From positions 1-27,245 of the IMG/VR virus record IMGVR_UViG_3300048833_000262: a stretch of DNA of 27,245 nt; one strand, given 5' to 3'. Shown one piece after another: positions 20 through 11,878 of the stretch (its first letter is position 1; each line of letters opens with the position of its first letter). The notes under the pieces were generated by a model that was not told the DNA's origin, did no database searches, and was given only the letters and a program-made list of their open reading frames with translations. Made by a program: the position numbers and the translations under genes. Source of the DNA: a virus.

Positions 20-79
20 CGCTAACAATTCATTCAAGCCGACGCCGCTTCGCGGCGCGGCTTAATTCAGGCGTTATGC
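20..79 (+). repeat. attC site 1 (60 bp, aadA-like)
   Basis: R'' box CGCTAAC at 20-26, inner arms CAAGCCGA and CGGCTTAA around a GCCGC-TTCG-GCGGC hairpin, and R' box GTTATGC at 73-79. Cleavage is expected after G73. Its 1L arm belongs to a cassette mostly left of the window. The unpaired A in the left arm gives the standard attC polarity on the + strand. Confidence 0.9.
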
Positions 80-315
80 CCCAATCGCTGCATTGCGTAG
101 GACTTCCGCATGTCGTGCCCCTGCATCGCCGCCAGTTCGTGCAGCAGCTTGTCTCGCGCTGCCGGGGTGGCCTTCTCCACCAGTTCGCAATCGGTCAGCG
201 CCGCCCATCCTTCGGGCCATCCACACCACATCAAGCGGTCGCCCTTTACGCCAGCCACCAGCCATTCTTCGCCGGTAGGTTTGTGCTTCACCGTGTCGCC
301 TGTATCAATGTCCAT
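67..315 (-). CDS. Cassette-encoded small protein, 82 aa, unknown function
   Basis: The ORF starts at ATG 315 behind GGAGGCGAC, a good ribosome-binding site. An upstream in-frame ATG would lie in or before attC2 and is less likely. The protein has a motif of the type GDTVxHxPTGEEWLVAxV followed by LMWCGWPEG. I associate this pattern with small integron-cassette and phage proteins that have a beta-rich N-terminus; that is recollection, not a search. A charged helical C-terminal half follows. The last codons (CAT AAC GCC TGA) are supplied by attC1, so the frame runs through the recombination point at 73/74 and uses a TGA inside the neighbouring attC. No catalytic motif is visible. Confidence 0.78.
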   Translation of the reverse strand: MDIDTGDTVKHKPTGEEWLVAGVKGDRLMWCGWPEGWAALTDCELVEKATPAARDKLLHELAAMQGHDMRKSYAMQRLGHNA

Positions 316-335
316 GTCGCCTCCGGTCGGTTGTG

Positions 336-423
336 GCATAACAATTCGCTCAACCCGACGCCGCTTCGGGTTCACGGTGAAATCACGCGCTCACGGCGGC
401 GCGGGTTAGCTCAGGCGTTAGGT
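336..423 (+). repeat. attC site 2 (88 bp)
   Basis: 1L box GCATAAC (336-342), inner arms CAACCCGA and CGGGTTAG, 1R box GTTAGGT (417-423). The terminal structure is longer than in site 1. The 1L box pairs with the TTATGCC that starts its own cassette at 74, but poorly with the 1R of this site, which belongs to the next cassette. Confidence 0.9.
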
Positions 424-648
424 TGCATCCGGGATATAAGGCTCGCTGCAATACAGGTCGGGGAATTGCCGATCAATGTCGCGCGTCATCACAAATCCGT
501 CTCGCAGTCCTTCCTCGTCAATGACAAACAGGCCCATGTAGGCGTCAAGCCATTTGCACTCTTTCGGCCCGGAGGGGAACAGGGCGACAAACTTGGCCTT
601 GTCAAACCCAATTTCTTTTGCACGTTCCTCACACTGATAAATATTCAT
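418..648 (-). CDS. Cassette-encoded small protein, 76 aa, unknown function
   Basis: Starts at ATG 648, about 17 nt inside the upstream attC core, with a weak Shine-Dalgarno (GAGAAG). It stops at TAA 420-418, a stop made by the attC 1R box itself. The protein begins MNIYQCEERAKEIGFDKAKF and later has FPSGPKECKWLDAYMGLF and an acidic, aromatic C-terminus. It looks like a compact soluble alpha/beta domain without membrane segment or signal. I do not recognise a family with certainty. Codon use is credible on this strand, while the opposite strand is open only as a long frame that also runs through the attC hairpins. Confidence 0.75.
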   Translation of the reverse strand: MNIYQCEERAKEIGFDKAKFVALFPSGPKECKWLDAYMGLFVIDEEGLRDGFVMTRDIDRQFPDLYCSEPYIPDAT

Positions 649-664
649 TGGCTTCTCGTTGGCA

Positions 665-753
665 ACCTAACAATTCATTCAAGCCGAGCCCGCTTCGCGG
701 TCTCGGTGCTACCGGCTCGCATCGGGCGGGCCGGCTTAACTCAGGCGTTAGCT
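665..753 (+). repeat. attC site 3 (89 bp)
   Basis: 1L ACCTAAC (665-671), arms CAAGCCGA and CGGCTTAA, 1R GTTAGCT (747-753). The flank GGCAACCTAAC pairs with TTAGGTTGC at 418, the other end of the same cassette. Confidence 0.9.
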
Positions 754-960
754 GGCACGAATCGCCCTCGCGCAGTCGGACAGGGGTGTATCGGCGATGT
801 TACCGATTGCGTCCTCGCAAACCTGCGCGCAAGCCTCGCGCGTCATCGCTTCGATCTTCGCGGCGAACGCTTCCAACAATCTTCCGGTCGGTGGCAACGT
901 CATAACCAGATCGCTACCGCATACCTCGCGCCACATTTCAACTGCAATTGTTCTGTTCAT
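748..960 (-). CDS. Cassette-encoded small protein, 70 aa, phage-like
   Basis: ATG 960 is preceded by TACGGAGCGAGAC, a clear ribosome-binding site. The stop TAA 750-748 is formed by the attC 1R box. The protein is mostly helical, with LLEAFAAKIEAMTREACAQV and a C-terminal CARAIRAS. The REACAxVCE ... CAxAIR pattern is one I associate with small accessory proteins of temperate phages of beta- and gammaproteobacteria, inferred from memory. Cysteines are repeated (AQVCE, SDCAR), but no metal site is obvious. No membrane segment. Function unknown. Confidence 0.75.
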   Translation of the reverse strand: MNRTIAVEMWREVCGSDLVMTLPPTGRLLEAFAAKIEAMTREACAQVCEDAIGNIADTPLSDCARAIRAS

Positions 961-982
961 GTCTCGCTCCGTAGTGGGCGCC

Positions 983-1072
983 AGCCAACAATTCGTTCAA
1001 GCCGAGACCGCTTCGCGGTCTCGCGCGTGTCTCACTCGCCGGCTGCGGTCCGGCTTAACTCAGGCGTTAGGT
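983..1072 (+). repeat. attC site 4 (90 bp)
   Basis: 1L AGCCAAC (983-989; the usual TAAC is CAAC here), arms CAAGCCGA and CGGCTTAA, 1R GTTAGGT (1066-1072). The flank GCCAGCCAAC matches the cassette start TTAGCTGGC at 748 with one transition. Confidence 0.88.
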
Positions 1073-1273
1073 TGCATTGGTATTCTTTCGCGGCTCGTGG
1101 ATCGTTTTCAGCATCTTCATCGCCAGCTTCACCGCGCCGTGGTCGTATTCATGCGTGAGCGTGCTGCCGTCGTCCAGCTTGTAGGCGCAAAGCCCGCCGG
1201 GATCACCGGCTGTTCGCACTGCTGACCGGGTAAAGATTGGCTGGCCGTTTATCAGGATGTTCACGGTAATCAT
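1067..1273 (-). CDS. Cassette-encoded small protein, 68 aa, with structured RNA leader
   Basis: ATG 1273 follows GGAGGCGAC, the same ribosome-binding site as the ORF at 67-315. TAA 1069-1067 is supplied by the attC 1R box. The protein begins MITVNILINGQPIFTRSAVR, a beta strand pair, then DDGSTLTHEYDHGAVKLAMK. A small beta-beta-alpha fold is plausible. Similar short proteins occur in phage early regions as far as I recall; no enzymatic motif is visible. It differs from the other cassettes in having about 170 nt between the attC and the start codon, filled by a predicted folded RNA that ends only 3-4 nt before the Shine-Dalgarno, which suggests control of translation. Confidence 0.78.
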   Translation of the reverse strand: MITVNILINGQPIFTRSAVRTAGDPGGLCAYKLDDGSTLTHEYDHGAVKLAMKMLKTIHEPRKNTNAT

Positions 1274-1285
1274 GTCGCCTCCATT

Positions 1286-1438
1286 CGATTCAGTTGAGCG
1301 GGCCGGCTGGAAGTTGCCGGCTTAGGTCGCCGCTTACGCGCTCATGCCAATCATCTGTCCCCGCAGCGGTTGTGGGTGGTTGGCATTTGACCTTCACGGG
1401 TTAACGGGTCTCCACCCCGTAGCCGCTCAACTCAATCG
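1286..1438 (-). ncRNA. Candidate structured leader RNA in a cassette (about 153 nt)
   Basis: A closing helix joins 1286-1301 and 1423-1438 (16 bp, one G-G mismatch on the - strand). Inside it are a GCCGGC hairpin (1302-1307/1316-1321), AGGTC with GACCT (1324-1328/1389-1393), ATGCCAA with TTGGCAT (1344-1350/1380-1386) and ACGGG with CCCGT (1404-1408/1416-1420). GGGTGG at 1374-1379 can pair with CCACCC at 1412-1417, a possible pseudoknot or switch. The helix ends just before the GGAGG of the ORF starting at 1273. Strand is chosen by that position; a + strand RNA could fold too. I do not recognise a known RNA family. Confidence 0.55.
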
Positions 1439-1444
1439 ACTGCA

Positions 1445-1504
1445 ACCTAACAATTCGGTGTAGCCGAACCCGCTTCGCGGGTCGGCTAACCTCAGCCGTT
1501 AGGC
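1445..1504 (+). repeat. attC site 5 (60 bp)
   Basis: 1L ACCTAAC (1445-1451), arms TAGCCGA and TCGGCTAA around CCCGC-TTCG-CGGG, 1R GTTAGGC (1498-1504). It has the variant right arm CTCAGCCGTTA rather than CTCAGGCGTTA. The flank TGCAACCTAA pairs with TTAGGTTGCA at 1067. Confidence 0.9.
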
Positions 1505-1677
1505 CGCAGGATGTCGGTCACGCGATCCCTTGCCGTTTCAACATCCAGCACGGTGTCCGCAAGCTCTTTCGCTGTCGGCTCCATGCCGTTGTGCTTGCAG
1601 AGAATCCACGCGGCGCGCAGCGCACTCGCGGCTTTCTGCAAGTGGCTTTCAAGTTCGGTTAGCTGTTCCTTCCGCAT
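1492..1677 (-). CDS. Cassette-encoded helical protein, 61 aa, unknown function
   Basis: ATG 1677 (MRKEQLTELE) is chosen over the upstream ATG in the same frame, which would start inside attC6; TACGGAGAACGAA gives a Shine-Dalgarno at suitable spacing. The protein is almost entirely helical with heptad-like leucines in the first 30 residues and an acidic second half. The tail RPNG and the TGA stop come from attC5, so the frame crosses the cleavage point. The identical tail ends the ORF at 2594-2803, which shows these residues are contributed by attC and not by the gene. Function unknown. Confidence 0.72.
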   Translation of the reverse strand: MRKEQLTELESHLQKAASALRAAWILCKHNGMEPTAKELADTVLDVETARDRVTDILRPNG

Positions 1678-1698
1678 TTCGTTCTCCGTAGGCCAGCG

Positions 1699-1789
1699 GC
1701 CTAACAATTCGTTCAAGCCGAGCCCGCTTCTCAGCTTCAACGGGGTTTGTGTGTTCCGGCAGCGGGCCGGCTTAACTCAGCCGTTATGT
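1699..1789 (+). repeat. attC site 6 (91 bp)
   Basis: 1L GCCTAAC (1699-1705), arms CAAGCCGA and CGGCTTAA, 1R GTTATGT (1783-1789). The flank GCGGCCTAA pairs with TTAGGCCGC at 1499. The terminal stem is the most divergent of the nine (TTCTCAGCTTCAACGG). Confidence 0.88.
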
Positions 1790-2032
1790 GCTTGCCTTGC
1801 GGGCCTTCACGCAGGTGAAGCACCGGTTGCCCATGTGCATCGTTGGCTTTCCGCATTCGATGCACTTCTGATCGGCGCCCTTAGCCCTATCCGCGCCTTC
1901 GTCGTATCCGGTTTGCCACGCTTCGTGCTCGTCGGTGTGCGCCGCGTATGGGTTGCTTACGCCATCCAGTTTCAAGCCGTGACCAATGCCGGATTCGTAA
2001 GCTGTGCAGATCATGTAAACCTTGCTGACCAC
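1784..2032 (-). CDS. Cassette-encoded RMF/CrpP-like small protein with C-terminal CxxC pairs, 82 aa
   Basis: The start is GTG 2032 with AGGAGGGAAC in front, better placed than ATG 2014. TAA 1786-1784 is formed by the attC 1R box. The middle region, with GxGxGLKLDGVSNPY followed by EAWQTGYDEG, resembles the ribosome modulation factor/CrpP type of small domain (conserved G, NPY and W-x-x-G). The C-terminus has KCIECGKP and NRCFTC, two CxxC pairs likely to bind zinc. If the resemblance is right it could bind ribosomes or nucleic acid, but this rests on motif memory only. No membrane segment. Confidence 0.75.
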   Translation of the reverse strand: MVSKVYMICTAYESGIGHGLKLDGVSNPYAAHTDEHEAWQTGYDEGADRAKGADQKCIECGKPTMHMGNRCFTCVKARKAST

Positions 2033-2055
2033 GTTCCCTCCTTAGTTCCTCCCGC

Positions 2056-2115
2056 ACATAACAATTCGCTGTAGGCGAGACCGCTTCGCGGCCCGCCTAA
2101 GCTCAGCCGTTAGAA
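2056..2115 (+). repeat. attC site 7 (60 bp)
   Basis: 1L ACATAAC (2056-2062), arms TAGGCGA and CGCCTAA around ACCGC-TTCG-CGG, 1R GTTAGAA (2109-2115). The flank GCACATAA pairs with TTATGTGC at 1784. Confidence 0.88.
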
Positions 2116-2526
2116 CTCAATTCGGGCATCGCCGAACTTGACGCTTTTGCTTGCGCCGCGTGACCAGCACCCCGGAGAAGTGTTCACCCAGCCCGCCGCA
2201 ATGCGGCCTTCGTCTATCAGGACTTGCATCGCGTCGTACATCGACGGCGACTTCCAGTTCCCGGACGCCTTCGACTTGACATACATGGCGGTCAGCTTGT
2301 CCCACTCGCGCACCAAGCCAACCCACTCGGGGTATTTCTCGGCCACTTCGTGCAACCGTGCCCGATATGCGGGGAACGCCTCAAGCAATCGGTGGCAGCG
2401 GCCAAAGTCACTCGGGTCACTCGGAACGTCTGCGGACCTTGGCGGAGGCGTGCCTTCCATGACGTGCATGATTGTTTTGCTGCTGGTGCCGGTGTCGTCA
2501 CCCATCATCCATTCAAGCGGGGTCAT
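2110..2526 (-). CDS. Cassette-encoded phage-like protein, 138 aa, unknown function
   Basis: ATG 2526 is preceded by TACGGAGAACCAA, nearly the same ribosome-binding leader as the ORF at 1492-1677. TAA 2112-2110 is formed by the attC 1R box. This is the largest cassette protein. It starts MTPLEWMMGDDTGTSSKTI, continues with a region containing DFGRCHRLLEAFPAYRARL and YPEWVGLVREWDKLTAMY, and ends with a beta-rich region around AAGWVNTSPGCWSRG. I associate this layout with hypothetical proteins in Pseudomonas- and Xanthomonas-type prophages, not with classical resistance cassettes; that is an unverified recollection. It suggests that phage genes have been packaged as cassettes. Confidence 0.8.
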   Translation of the reverse strand: MTPLEWMMGDDTGTSSKTIMHVMEGTPPPRSADVPSDPSDFGRCHRLLEAFPAYRARLHEVAEKYPEWVGLVREWDKLTAMYVKSKASGNWKSPSMYDAMQVLIDEGRIAAGWVNTSPGCWSRGASKSVKFGDARIEF

Positions 2527-2546
2527 TTGGTTCTCCGTATGTTGAG

Positions 2547-2606
2547 TTCTAACAATTCGGTGTAGCCGAAACCGCTTCGCGGTTCGGCTAACCTCAGCCG
2601 TTAGGC
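2547..2606 (+). repeat. attC site 8 (60 bp)
   Basis: 1L TTCTAAC (2547-2553), arms TAGCCGA and TCGGCTAA around ACCGC-TTCG-CGGT, 1R GTTAGGC (2600-2606). The flank TTGAGTTCTAA pairs with TTAGAACTCAA at 2110, an 11-bp self-match. Confidence 0.9.
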
Positions 2607-2803
2607 CGCAGGCTCAGAACTTCCGGCGGGAAGCCTGGCGTAACGATCACGGCGGACATGCCGGCGCTGTAGAACAAGCCTCCCGGAGTCTGCTTTGGTT
2701 CAAGCGCCCATGCTTTAACATAACCGTGCGCGTCCGCTGTGATGTAATTCGCCCACTCTGGGGCTTGCTTCCTGTATTGCTCCAGAAAATTGCCTTGTTC
2801 CAT
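2594..2803 (-). CDS. Cassette-encoded small protein, 69 aa, unknown function
   Basis: ATG 2803 is preceded by GAGGAGGCGCA, a strong ribosome-binding site; a longer in-frame extension to 3103 would cross attC9 and the next gene and is rejected. The protein starts MEQGNFLEQYRKQAPEWANY and contains GYVKAWALEPKQTPGGLFYS, a small alpha/beta domain rich in aromatic residues. It ends RPNG-TGA using attC8 sequence, exactly like the ORF at 1492-1677. No known family assigned. Confidence 0.72.
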   Translation of the reverse strand: MEQGNFLEQYRKQAPEWANYITADAHGYVKAWALEPKQTPGGLFYSAGMSAVIVTPGFPPEVLSLRPNG

Positions 2804-2823
2804 TGCGCCTCCTCGGGCCATCG

Positions 2824-2913
2824 GCCTAACAATTCGTTCAAGCCGAGACCGCTTCGCGGCCTCGGCGCACACCGTATCGCATCGCGCGGTCAGGCATAAC
2901 TCAGCCGTTATGC
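2824..2913 (+). repeat. attC site 9 (90 bp), terminal site of the array
   Basis: 1L GCCTAAC (2824-2830), arms CAAGCCGA (left) and GGCATAA (right, diverged from CGGCTTAA), 1R GTTATGC (2907-2913). The flank CGGCCTAA pairs with TTAGGCCG at 2601. No further TAACAATTC site with a matching GGCGGCATAAC flank follows to the right, so this is the last site. Its 1R supplies the stop codon of the PrtN-like gene. Confidence 0.88.
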
Positions 2914-3180
2914 CGCCTGATGAATCCGCTTCCACTCCTTCGCCGCTTCTTCGTGCTTGGCATCGATGTACGCGGCCAGTGCGTCTGCGGAGACCATCCA
3001 CGGAGACTTCTGGCTGCCCAGGCGGAAAACGGGAACAGGCAGCGCCTGGCGCACGGCGGCGCGCTTGGCTTCGTCGGGTTTCAGGCCGAAGTGGTGGCAG
3101 CACTTTTCCAGCGGAATCTGCGCGGTGCCGAACTCGGCGCAGAGGAGGAAGAAGGTGCGGGTGTTGGCGGGTGCGGTCAT
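2908..3180 (-). CDS. PrtN-like pyocin-activator family regulator, 90 aa
   Basis: The segment NTRTFFLLCAEFGTAQIPLEKCCHHF, then VPVFRLGSQKSPWMVSADALAAYIDAKHEEA, matches the PrtN pattern: NTFFLL at the N-terminus, an AxFGTAxIPLE motif, a basic R-x-GSQK turn and a terminal AxYID helix. PrtN activates pyocin genes in Pseudomonas; PrtN-like proteins in prophages often sit beside the integrase and may act as excision or early regulators (established family knowledge plus inference). ATG 3180 lies one base after the upstream TGA. ATG 3192 is an alternative, but the AGGAGG touches it directly. The TAA stop (2910-2908) is created by the attC9 core, so this gene joins the phage operon to the cassette array. 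Confidence 0.82.
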   Translation of the reverse strand: MTAPANTRTFFLLCAEFGTAQIPLEKCCHHFGLKPDEAKRAAVRQALPVPVFRLGSQKSPWMVSADALAAYIDAKHEEAAKEWKRIHQAA

Positions 3181-8450: not shown

Positions 8451-8673
8451 CCTGATGGATCGCGTGCAGCAGCACGCGGAAGACATGACCAGCGATGCCC
8501 TGGCCGCGCATGCGCAGCGGCCCCGTGCCCCGGGCCTGACCCACTGCGAGCACGCGGACTGCGCCGAGCCCATCGCACCACAACGCACCGCGCTGGGCGC
8601 ACGCCTGTGCCTGGACTGCCAGACCGGCGTGGAAGCGCAGCGCGTGCATCAACAGACATGGGGGCGCCGGTGA
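8443..8673 (+). CDS. DksA/TraR-type C4 zinc-finger protein, 76 aa
   Basis: ATG 8443 overlaps the preceding stop by 8 nt and has GGAGG at suitable spacing. After a helical start (MPDLMDRVQQHAEDMTSDAL) come THCEHADCAEPI and ARLCLDCQTG, giving C-x4-C ... C-x2-C, the C-terminal zinc finger of phage DksA/TraR-like proteins. Such proteins bind the RNA polymerase secondary channel or act in phage transcription. The coiled-coil tip of full DksA is absent, as usual for short phage forms. Role in early transcription inferred. Confidence 0.85.
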   Translation: MPDLMDRVQQHAEDMTSDALAAHAQRPRAPGLTHCEHADCAEPIAPQRTALGARLCLDCQTGVEAQRVHQQTWGRR

Positions 8674-8676
8674 GCC

Positions 8677-8886
8677 ATGCGAACCGCGCGACGCCAGCTT
8701 CGCGCAGTACCAGCATCGCGGCAGGCGGTGAACGGCCGGCGTCTGGCCGAGGTCATGTCCCTGCTGTATTCGGACACACCCACCACGCCGGAGCAGGCTG
8801 CTGCGCTGCAGGTGGAACTGGCGGCACCACGCACGCAGCGGCAGTGCGATCTGCCGCTTTGCATTCCGGAACCTGATTCCAAATGA
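8677..8886 (+). CDS. Small phage protein, 69 aa, unknown
   Basis: ATG 8677 lies 3 nt after the zinc-finger stop. The protein is basic at the start (MRTARRQLRAVPASRQAVNG), then contains SLLYSDTPTTPEQAAALQVE and RTQRQCDLPLCIPEPDSK. It has two cysteines but no complete zinc site. No family recognised. The tight spacing places it in the early-right operon. Confidence 0.6.
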   Translation: MRTARRQLRAVPASRQAVNGRRLAEVMSLLYSDTPTTPEQAAALQVELAAPRTQRQCDLPLCIPEPDSK

Positions 8887-9126: not shown

Positions 9127-11541
9127 ATGGCCGCGAGCAACTACGACGACGTCCTCAGCCAACTCCACGCCGCCGGCCTGATCGTCGACCGCCTCGAGGT
9201 CACCGGCAAGATCGTCCGCTGCAAAGTCGAGGGCGATCGCGAAAAACGCGGCTGGTACAGCCTCCACGAATTCACCACCAGCCGGAATGACGTCCTGATC
9301 GTCGGCAGCTACGGCCAGTGGCGCGGCGCGGAGAACTTCGCCCAGCGCATCGAGCTCAAGTCCCAGAAGATGGACCCGGTCGAAGCCGCCGCGCTGAAGC
9401 GCCGCCTGGCCGATGACCGCAAGGCCGCGGACGCTGCCCAGGCCGCCACCCACAAGCGCGCCGCCGAAGCCGCCAGCCTCATGTGGGCGAAGCTCTCCGA
9501 AGACGGAGACTCCGATTACCTCGCCGCGAAGAAGGTGCAGGGCTACGGCCTGCGCTACTCGCCGCGCGGCGGCGCTGTGCTGCCGGTGCTGGACACGCAA
9601 GGCCGGATCCACGGCCTGCAGATCCTGCGCACGCCGGCCGCCGCGGAACGCGAGAGGAAACCCGCCAAGGAATTCTGGCCGAAGGGCGTGGCGAAGAAGG
9701 GCCACTTCCACCTGATCGGCAGTCCCGCGTGGATCGTGCTGATCGCCGAGGGCTACGCCACCGCCGCCTCCCTGCACGCGGCCACCGGACACCCGGTGGC
9801 CGTTGCGTTCGATGCCGGCAATCTGGCGCCCGTCGCCGACGCCCTGCGCAAGCGCTACCCGCAGACCAAGATACTGCTGTGCGCCGACAACGACGACCTC
9901 GGCAAGTGCCGCCACGACGACTGCCGCGGGCGCGTCGCCCTGGCGCAGCACCCGGTGGAATGCCCGCACTGCGGCAAGGAACACGGCTACACCAACGCCG
10001 GCGTGGGCGCCGCCAGCAGCGCGGCGCTCGCGGTGAAGGGCGGCTGGGTCGCGCCCACCTTCGCGGATCCGGACGCGCGCATCGCCGCCTACCTCGAGCG
10101 CGGCAGCAAGCCCACCGACTTCAACGACCTCCACGTCGACGAAGGCCTGCACGTCGTGCGCGTGCAGGTGGAGGCCCACCTCACGGCATTGCGCTGGAAC
10201 CCCAAGGTTCCCACTGCGGCGGCCACCACCACCAGCGGGGGAGGGGCGCCGCTGCGCCCGATCGAAACCACGCAAGAGTTGATGGAGCGCTTCGCGCTGG
10301 TGGCCAGCACGCCGGTCGCCGTGTTCGATCGCCAGGAGCATCGCCTGCGCACGCTCGCGGACATGCGGGAGATGTGCACGTTCAAGTGGGTGCACCGCGG
10401 CTGGTCGGAATCCACCGAACGCCAGATCGTGCGCGACAGCGAAGTCGGCTTCGATCCCACCGGCCAGGACACCAGCGTCACCTGCAACCTCTACGCCGGC
10501 TGGCCCACGGTACCGAAGGAAGGCAGCTGCGAGCGCCTGCTGGATCTGCTGCGCTACATGTGCAGCGAGGACCGCAATCCCGCGGCGCTCTATCAATGGT
10601 TGCTGCGCTGGATCGCCTATCCCATCCAGCACCCCGGCGCGAAGATGAAGACCACGCTGGTCCTGCACGGCCCGCAGGGCGCCGGCAAGAACCTGTTCTT
10701 CGAAGCGGTGATGAAGATCTACGGCGAGTACGGCGACGTGCTCGACCAGGCCGCGGTGGAAGACAAGTTCAACGATTGGGCATCGCGCAAGCTCTTCATG
10801 ATCGCGGACGAAGTGGTGGCGCGCTCCGGCGCGTACCACATCAAGAACCAGCTGAAGTCCCTGATCACCGGGGACCGGATCCGCATCAACCCGAAGAACA
10901 TGGCCGCGCACTGGGAACGCAACCACCTCAACCTGGTGTTCCTCTCCAACGAATCCATGCCGGTGGTCATCGAAGAGGATGATCGCCGCCACTGCGTGGT
11001 GTGGACGCCAGGCAAGGAATCGCGCGAGTACTACCAGAAGGTCATGGCGGAGATCGCCGCCGGCGGCGTCGCCGCGCTGCATCACTACCTGCTGCACATG
11101 GACCTGGGCGACTTCGACAACGGCACCCTCCCGCCGAAGACCGAGGCGAAGCAGGAGCTGATCAAGCTCGGCCTGGACAGCCCGGTCCGCTTCTACGACG
11201 AGCTGATGCTCGAAGAGATCCCGAAGGTCGATCCCATGCCGGGGCTCACCACGGACTGGTACCAGCTCTACAGGACATGGTGCGCCAAGCACGGCTACCA
11301 CATGGCGCCAGAGGCGAAGTTCGTCATCGCCCTCACCCGGCAGCGCGGTGTGCAGAAGCTGCGCAAGCGCTACACCCCGGGGGCCGAGGAGCGCGGGCCC
11401 CACTGGTTCCTGTTCCTGGGCGCCGCCAATCCGCCTGAAGGGCAAAGCCAGGCGAACTGGCTCGGCACCTGTTACGCCCGCGTGCGCGAGCAGCTCGAGG
11501 ACTACAAGGGCCGCCCGCAGGGCGCCGGAGGTGGCGCGTGA
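9127..11541 (+). CDS. P4-alpha-like primase-helicase, 804 aa
   Basis: The N-terminal half carries a TOPRIM domain: Glu208 in LIAEGYATA and the acidic CADNDD motif from Asp254. Between them and the linker is a cysteine-rich insert (CRHDDCRG and CPHCGKEHG), a probable zinc finger. The C-terminal half is an SF3-type helicase of the phage DUF5906 kind, with Walker A HGPQGAGKN (about residues 514-522), Walker B region MIADEVV, and a motif-C-like LNLVFLSNES. The last 100 residues (TTDWYQLYRTWCAKHGYHMA onward) look like a winged helix for origin recognition. It should prime and unwind phage DNA, probably starting at the iteron cluster just downstream. Start ATG is 1 nt after the previous stop. Confidence 0.93.
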   Translation: MAASNYDDVLSQLHAAGLIVDRLEVTGKIVRCKVEGDREKRGWYSLHEFTTSRNDVLIVGSYGQWRGAENFAQRIELKSQKMDPVEAAALKRRLADDRKAADAAQAATHKRAAEAASLMWAKLSEDGDSDYLAAKKVQGYGLRYSPRGGAVLPVLDTQGRIHGLQILRTPAAAERERKPAKEFWPKGVAKKGHFHLIGSPAWIVLIAEGYATAASLHAATGHPVAVAFDAGNLAPVADALRKRYPQTKILLCADNDDLGKCRHDDCRGRVALAQHPVECPHCGKEHGYTNAGVGAASSAALAVKGGWVAPTFADPDARIAAYLERGSKPTDFNDLHVDEGLHVVRVQVEAHLTALRWNPKVPTAAATTTSGGGAPLRPIETTQELMERFALVASTPVAVFDRQEHRLRTLADMREMCTFKWVHRGWSESTERQIVRDSEVGFDPTGQDTSVTCNLYAGWPTVPKEGSCERLLDLLRYMCSEDRNPAALYQWLLRWIAYPIQHPGAKMKTTLVLHGPQGAGKNLFFEAVMKIYGEYGDVLDQAAVEDKFNDWASRKLFMIADEVVARSGAYHIKNQLKSLITGDRIRINPKNMAAHWERNHLNLVFLSNESMPVVIEEDDRRHCVVWTPGKESREYYQKVMAEIAAGGVAALHHYLLHMDLGDFDNGTLPPKTEAKQELIKLGLDSPVRFYDELMLEEIPKVDPMPGLTTDWYQLYRTWCAKHGYHMAPEAKFVIALTRQRGVQKLRKRYTPGAEERGPHWFLFLGAANPPEGQSQANWLGTCYARVREQLEDYKGRPQGAGGGA

Positions 11542-11548
11542 CCGGGCG

Positions 11549-11809
11549 TGTGCGGGGTGTGCGGGGTCTGTGCACCCACCTGTGCGGGGTCGAAACCCGC
11601 GCCGCCATTGGCTTGTGCGGGGTGTGCGGGGTCTCGCCTAACGCGGGCGCGCACACGCGAAGCCGCGCCGCCGCCGCCATCCGCCCACGCTCGCGCAATC
11701 GTGCGCACACACGCACACCCCCGCACACCCCGCACGCCCCGCACAACGCAAGCGTGGCGCGGGTTTCGTCTGTGCGGGGTCGCAAGCGGCACCCCGCACA
11801 CCCCGCACA
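11549..11809. repeat. Iteron cluster, 11 copies of a 9-mer (candidate origin)
   Basis: TGTGCGGGG occurs on the + strand at 11549, 11558, 11581, 11614, 11623 and 11771. Its complement CCCCGCACA occurs at 11719, 11728 (last base G), 11737, 11792 and 11801. Neighbours are often exactly 9 bp apart, head to tail. The region 11542-11878 holds no convincing gene; its open frames translate to low-complexity Cys/Gly/Val or Pro/His repeats. It directly follows the primase-helicase gene, as the P4 origin repeats relate to the alpha protein system, so an origin is inferred. Confidence 0.7.
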
Positions 11810-11878
11810 GCCATGCTCGCGCGCACGCGTCTGTCCTCTTTTCCTTGTTCCCCGAGAGGAAGGAAGGGGAGGCAACCC

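Follow-up and report, generated by a model that had tools for sequence, protein, structure and literature searches.

An attC-like palindrome, diverged and enlarged, may account for a 153-nt structured element that lies between an attC site and the RBS of a 68-aa ORF in a phage-borne array of integron-type cassettes, and that would now act as a passive or damping 5′-UTR structure. We hold this reading tentatively, at a probability of roughly 0.4. It is suggested by the place of the element, which is that of the attC in other cassettes (a hairpin, then the RBS), by a closing helix whose arms, read in the + orientation like the nine attCs of the array, outscore control inverted repeats on attC position weight matrices (PWMs), and by a fold almost equal on the two strands, as a DNA palindrome would have. 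Homologues of the gene lack the element, and in one of them the RBS comes directly after an attC. A half copy in two other contigs adjoins a different attC, and those contigs part at the attC core site. Large branched attCs are also known (PMC5371416), and attC hairpins in mRNA hinder translation (PMC8876359).

The cassette array and its one long leader

The window, by which we mean the whole analyzed stretch of DNA, is a complete IMG/VR record of 27,245 bases with a phage-like coding part. Relatives of its terminase-like ORF occur in a Thermomonas MAG and in another proteobacterial MAG, and short stretches of Stenotrophomonas, Acidovorax and Pseudomonas phages match it. All nine attCs of its array (Table 1) are in the + orientation and, judged by the R″/L″/L′/R′ pattern and by sequence similarity, belong to the type that accompanies resistance cassettes. 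Most of the minus-strand ORFs of the array have clear Shine-Dalgarno (SD) sequences. Inspection of the window ORFs, made without a profile, showed no integrase gene; attC arrays of this kind in phages, with the integrase lacking, are called CALINs in the accessible text of PMC9892861. The start codon lies ~16-24 nt from the attC in the other cassettes with a clear start and ~174 nt from it in the case of the 68-aa ORF, which bears out an earlier claim, made by a sequence-only reading of this DNA, that no other cassette has such a long leader.

Table 1. Features of the array and of the structured element, in window coordinates
Feature	Position	Strand	Remarks
Nine-attC array	20..2913	+	Small cassette ORFs between attCs on minus strand
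attC	983..1071	+	Opposite side of 68-aa ORF from element
68-aa ORF	1067..1273	-	phrog_3491; four strands and C-terminal helix predicted
SD GGAGG of 68-aa ORF	1278..1282	-	3 nt past closing helix
Structured palindromic element (leader), 153 nt	1286..1438	-	Non-coding; strong fold; no Rfam family
P1 3′ arm (gene strand)	1286..1301	-	+ orientation CGATTCAGTTGAGCGG; resembles attC spacer plus L″ (AATTCGTTCAAGCCG)
P4 hairpin GCCGGC-AACTTCCA-GCCGGC	1302..1321	-	Folds on both strands
P3 (GGTC/GACC)	1324..1393	-	Fold; encloses P3a and P3b
P3b	1331-1340	-	Fold; within P3
P3a ATGCCAACC..GATTGGCAT	1344-1386	-	Fold; contains CCACCC
39-codon ORF	1344..1463	+	Extends into attC; no convincing SD
11-codon ORF (MPTTHNRCGDR)	1351..1386	-	Inside element; weak SD AAGG
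P2 hairpin TACGGGG..ACCCGTG	1395..1421	-	Fold; contains GGGTGG of proposed pseudoknot
P1 5′ arm (gene strand)	1423..1438	-	+ orientation CCGCTCAACTCAATCG; resembles attC L′ plus spacer (CGGCTTAACTCAGGCG)
attC	1445..1504	+	Between element and next ORF; R″/L″/L′/R′ pattern and resistance-cassette attC similarity

The arrays also show an unusual arrangement of their genes. In the usual cassette, gene and attC share one sense. In the window array and at eight further loci (L002, L020, L031, L040, L047, L052, L067 and L069), the cassette ORFs instead point against the usual direction of the attCs, with the orientation anchored on the aadB attC and L002 judged by eye. Counted by interval across the viral-contig arrays, 18 have an ORF opposite to the attC sense, 2 have one in the same sense and 10 have no clear ORF; both same-sense intervals lie in a single locus (L059), which also has 3 opposite ones. 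No mention of antiparallel cassette ORFs was found in the accessible text of PMC9892861. Two repeat-rich regions were noticed elsewhere in the window, one of them an apparently non-coding gap between ORFs (11534-11824) densely packed with copies of GTGCGGGGTGTGCGGGGT in inverted and direct orientation, and the other a place where inverted repeats of 16 bp or more overlap in a cluster, at 8548-8810 (counted relative to base 3001, so that the true window coordinates are ~3000 higher).

Predicted fold of the element

The gene strand folds with an MFE of -67.9 kcal/mol over the exact interval and of -72.4 kcal/mol with flanks (z -4.28), and the plus strand with -71.6 kcal/mol (z -4.53, with none of 200 shuffles folding as well). 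Closing helix P1 occupies 16 positions, 15 of them paired and one mismatched, and an extra T-A pair lies just beyond it (1285/1439). When inverted repeats were sought across the array with arms of at least 16 bp, at most one mismatch and a separation of up to ~200 nt, P1 was the one instance, and 150 dinucleotide shuffles of the array gave 0. The sequence-only reading had described a stable, cassette-borne structure closed by a 16-bp helix with one mismatch and ending 3-4 nt before the SD, and on each of these points it is confirmed. It had also placed four further helices inside P1; inner helices do exist, but this count is one too low (P2, P3, P3a, P3b and P4). The GGGTGG/CCACCC pseudoknot that it proposed is possible on paper within the predicted fold.

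Both strands fold about equally well, and since the predicted structure is so nearly strand-symmetric, it gives no indication of a function as RNA on one strand. In the MFE structure, the SD of the 68-aa ORF is unpaired. A pairing of CUUCCA in the P4 loop with UGGAGG at the SD was considered and set aside, with about one such match per 150 nt estimated by chance and with an intact P1 expected to hold the partners apart. As for coding potential, the 11-codon ORF inside the element could, from its sequence, encode a leader peptide, and the 39-codon ORF on the + strand is probably spurious.

Likeness to attC sites

Read in the + orientation, the arms of P1 resemble the L″/L′ stem of attC sites, a resemblance that went unmentioned in the sequence-only reading. 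For scoring, PWMs were derived from 28 attCs on other contigs, with a background drawn also from the window. The two-arm score was 6.0, and none of the 370 inverted repeats that served as controls in the compared loci scored as high (best 0.2). The score of the 3′ arm was reached or beaten at 209 of 1,389,825 masked positions, or ~1.5e-4 per position. What is present in the element is a likeness and not an identity, and being statistical and tested after it had been noticed in the sequence, it calls for some discount.

By its defining features, the element cannot be classified as an attC. The R″ (RYYYAAC) and R′ (GTTRRRY) boxes are absent, their expected places reading GCCTCCA and GACTGCA, as are the extrahelical base and the unpaired central spacer, for the helix is continuous but for its one mismatch. 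Known attC sites measure 57-141 bp and include some with branched terminal structures (PMC5371416); the element exceeds that range, at 153 nt bounded by the helix and ~165 with flanks. The missing boxes, extrahelical base and spacer all count against an attC-like reading, as does the excess over the cited upper size. So does the near-perfect pairing of the outer helix, a state that an attC would not reach by simply decaying.

Occurrence of the element and of its gene

Apart from the one full copy, the element was found as a half copy, identical in two contigs (L070 and L080) from one metagenome. These contigs match the leader half at 63 of 64 nt and carry the entire flank to the attC. L070 comes from a relative of the window phage that is 75-90% identical elsewhere and 98% identical in the leader half. 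A relic might have diverged further, so this near-identity in other phages also speaks against the attC-like reading; recent cassette exchange would explain it as well. The attC beside the leader half (65-127 of L070 and L080) is clearly unlike its counterpart in the window, with changes that include paired ones in the stem. The leader is thus near-identical while the adjoining attC differs, as if attCs had been swapped on both sides of the unit. The lone substitution breaks a predicted pair whose partner falls outside the contig, and within the 11-codon ORF it is synonymous (CCA to CCC).

L070 and L080 have exactly 127 nt in common and diverge directly after the GTTA of the attC core site. 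A k-mer of 127 is usual in assembly, and the shared 127 nt are probably such a k-mer. The contig ends accordingly show only a shared left part and two different adjoining cassettes, and the breaks within the leader were rejected as evidence of a repeat. Because the contigs part exactly at the core site, the element appears to travel as cassette material, and one leader-attC unit adjoining two different cassettes is the kind of pattern that cassette recombination yields.

The 68-aa ORF belongs to a phage protein family of unknown function. Its homologues in L002 (69% identity), L003 (52%) and L004 (47%) all lack the leader upstream; that of L002 also sits in an attC array, with its RBS directly after an attC, and those of L003 and L004 sit in ordinary phage operons. 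No homologue was found in genome contigs or plasmids. The model of the 68-aa protein had no significant match in the PDB and therefore gives no sign of RNA binding, which leaves the suggestion that the leader binds the encoded protein without support. Matches of the model to designed TIM barrels were dismissed, as no single stretch passes on its own.

Searches with the element itself were empty or returned candidates that did not hold. Rfam gave 0 matches at the gathering score and chance-level matches in a permissive search, a tRNA/tmRNA search gave none, and the leader DNA matched no plasmid; its one phage match, 55 nt at 80% in a mycobacteriophage, was taken as chance. Neither 17- and 18-mers from the left half of the leader nor a pattern of the P4 region found a match, and no convincing homologue was among the nine IMG/VR loci that a terminal-helix pattern returned. 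The covariance-model search that the sequence-only reading had recommended found no match in 395 family genomes with a model made from one full sequence. The genomes were a drawn sample, with 395 from the host-like family, 369 from the class and 25 from the genus, and their empty results weigh little. L007 (IMGVR_UViG_3300023092_000001) scored 30 bits with the leader covariance model and was rejected as a homologue, as its interior differs and its E-value is invalid as homology evidence for a locus picked from all of IMG/VR for exact arms. L007 has a structure of its own: next to a terminase-like ORF, an ORF-poor stretch of ~680 nt (~20-700) contains two closing helices of 18 bp each (295-312/470-487 and 499-516/629-646). 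This stretch has a z of -3.7 and no Rfam match, and is a candidate for a large phage non-coding RNA.

Possible explanations

The sequence-only reading listed a regulatory RNA among its options, and a cis-acting minus-strand leader that controls translation of the 68-aa ORF, as a riboswitch, a protein-binding leader or an attenuator, is the main alternative, doubtful but with several points to its credit. The strong fold stops 3 nt short of the SD, and the available half is better conserved than the other aligned phage DNA. The internal 11-codon ORF could make the element an attenuator working like the leader of the cmlA cassette, which sets the precedent of a long leader with a regulatory role in a cassette (PMC8876359), and the lone substitution leaves its peptide unchanged, although one substitution proves nothing. 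Against such an RNA stand the three homologues without the element, which show no recurrent association with the gene family, the equal folding of the opposite strand, the SD left free in the MFE structure, and the lack of an Rfam family or of any further homologue in viral contigs and among the 395 and 369 genomes drawn from the family and the class. The proposal of a riboswitch or autoregulatory RNA is thus not upheld by the homologues, the strand-symmetric fold, the Rfam search or the copies found, which include no second full one and show no covariation. An earlier claim of a riboswitch in an integron leader turned out to be about the integration site itself, and experiments refuted it (PMC9410878), a history that urges caution here. 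It seems unlikely that the element represents a novel kind of leader RNA, structured and mobile within phage integron-type cassettes, that controls whichever gene it is placed before, possibly by attenuation through the 11-codon ORF. Its interior of 120 nt, framed by a long terminal inverted repeat, and its presence in one gene lineage when the homologous cassette of L002 lacks it, would suit an independent MITE- or REP-like element inserted between attC and RBS, but this is quite improbable given the lack of a target-site duplication at its ends, of other copies in the window and of any convincing copy in the genomes searched, 395 from the family and 369 from the class. A non-coding RNA gene that the cassette carries as independent cargo would fit the stable multi-helix fold and the cassette linkage in three contigs; it is very improbable for an element that abuts an RBS and matches no known family. 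Nothing promoter-like was found, and the two terminator-like matches of the region lie outside the element. Chance is scarcely credible even in GC-rich DNA, which generally folds well, against the 0 of 200 and 0 of 150 shuffles.

The reading that we prefer, an attC-like palindrome, would make the element a relative, or a relic, of the integron hairpins for recombination that stand between all the other genes in the array, with descent from an attC. P1 would retain the L″/L′-like stem, and the interior would be an oversized branched terminal structure. With its R boxes lost, the element should no longer recombine; it would stay within the unit between two intact-looking attCs and move with that unit. 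On the leftward phage transcript, a stable structure would form directly upstream of the RBS. Hairpins of attC sites in mRNA hinder ribosome movement and the translation of downstream cassettes and leave transcription unaffected (PMC8876359), so the element may be expected to dampen or insulate translation of the 68-aa ORF passively, with no ligand involved.

Comparison with known systems

Sites of the aadA and aadB type, and the long ones with a branched VTS such as VCR, share with the element a palindromic form and the orientation of the L-like stem. They also stand between cassette ORFs directly 5′ of an RBS, and the large ones are likewise branched inside. They differ in having R boxes, an extrahelical base and a central spacer, and as DNA they fold at -12 to -22 kcal/mol versus -41 to -44 kcal/mol for the larger and far more stable element. 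The window array is of the same kind as the phage-borne CALINs of PMC9892861, whose accessible text describes no such leader. The translational attenuator of cmlA is similar by description, in that both have a short ORF within a long, structured 5′ UTR; unlike cmlA, the element has no demonstrated alternative structure that sequesters the SD and no known inducer. If it is a real leader RNA all the same, phage cassette arrays carry portable regulatory parts alongside genes. A parallel in argument is the attI1 "aminoglycoside riboswitch", where a stretch of integron sequence, structured and lying upstream of its cassette gene, was, as here, proposed to be a riboswitch, although that sequence, unlike the element, was the integration site and the claim fell to experiment (PMC9410878). 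If the element is derived from an attC, recombination hairpins can become leader RNAs in cassette arrays, or be mistaken for them, which is the same trap as in the attI1 case.
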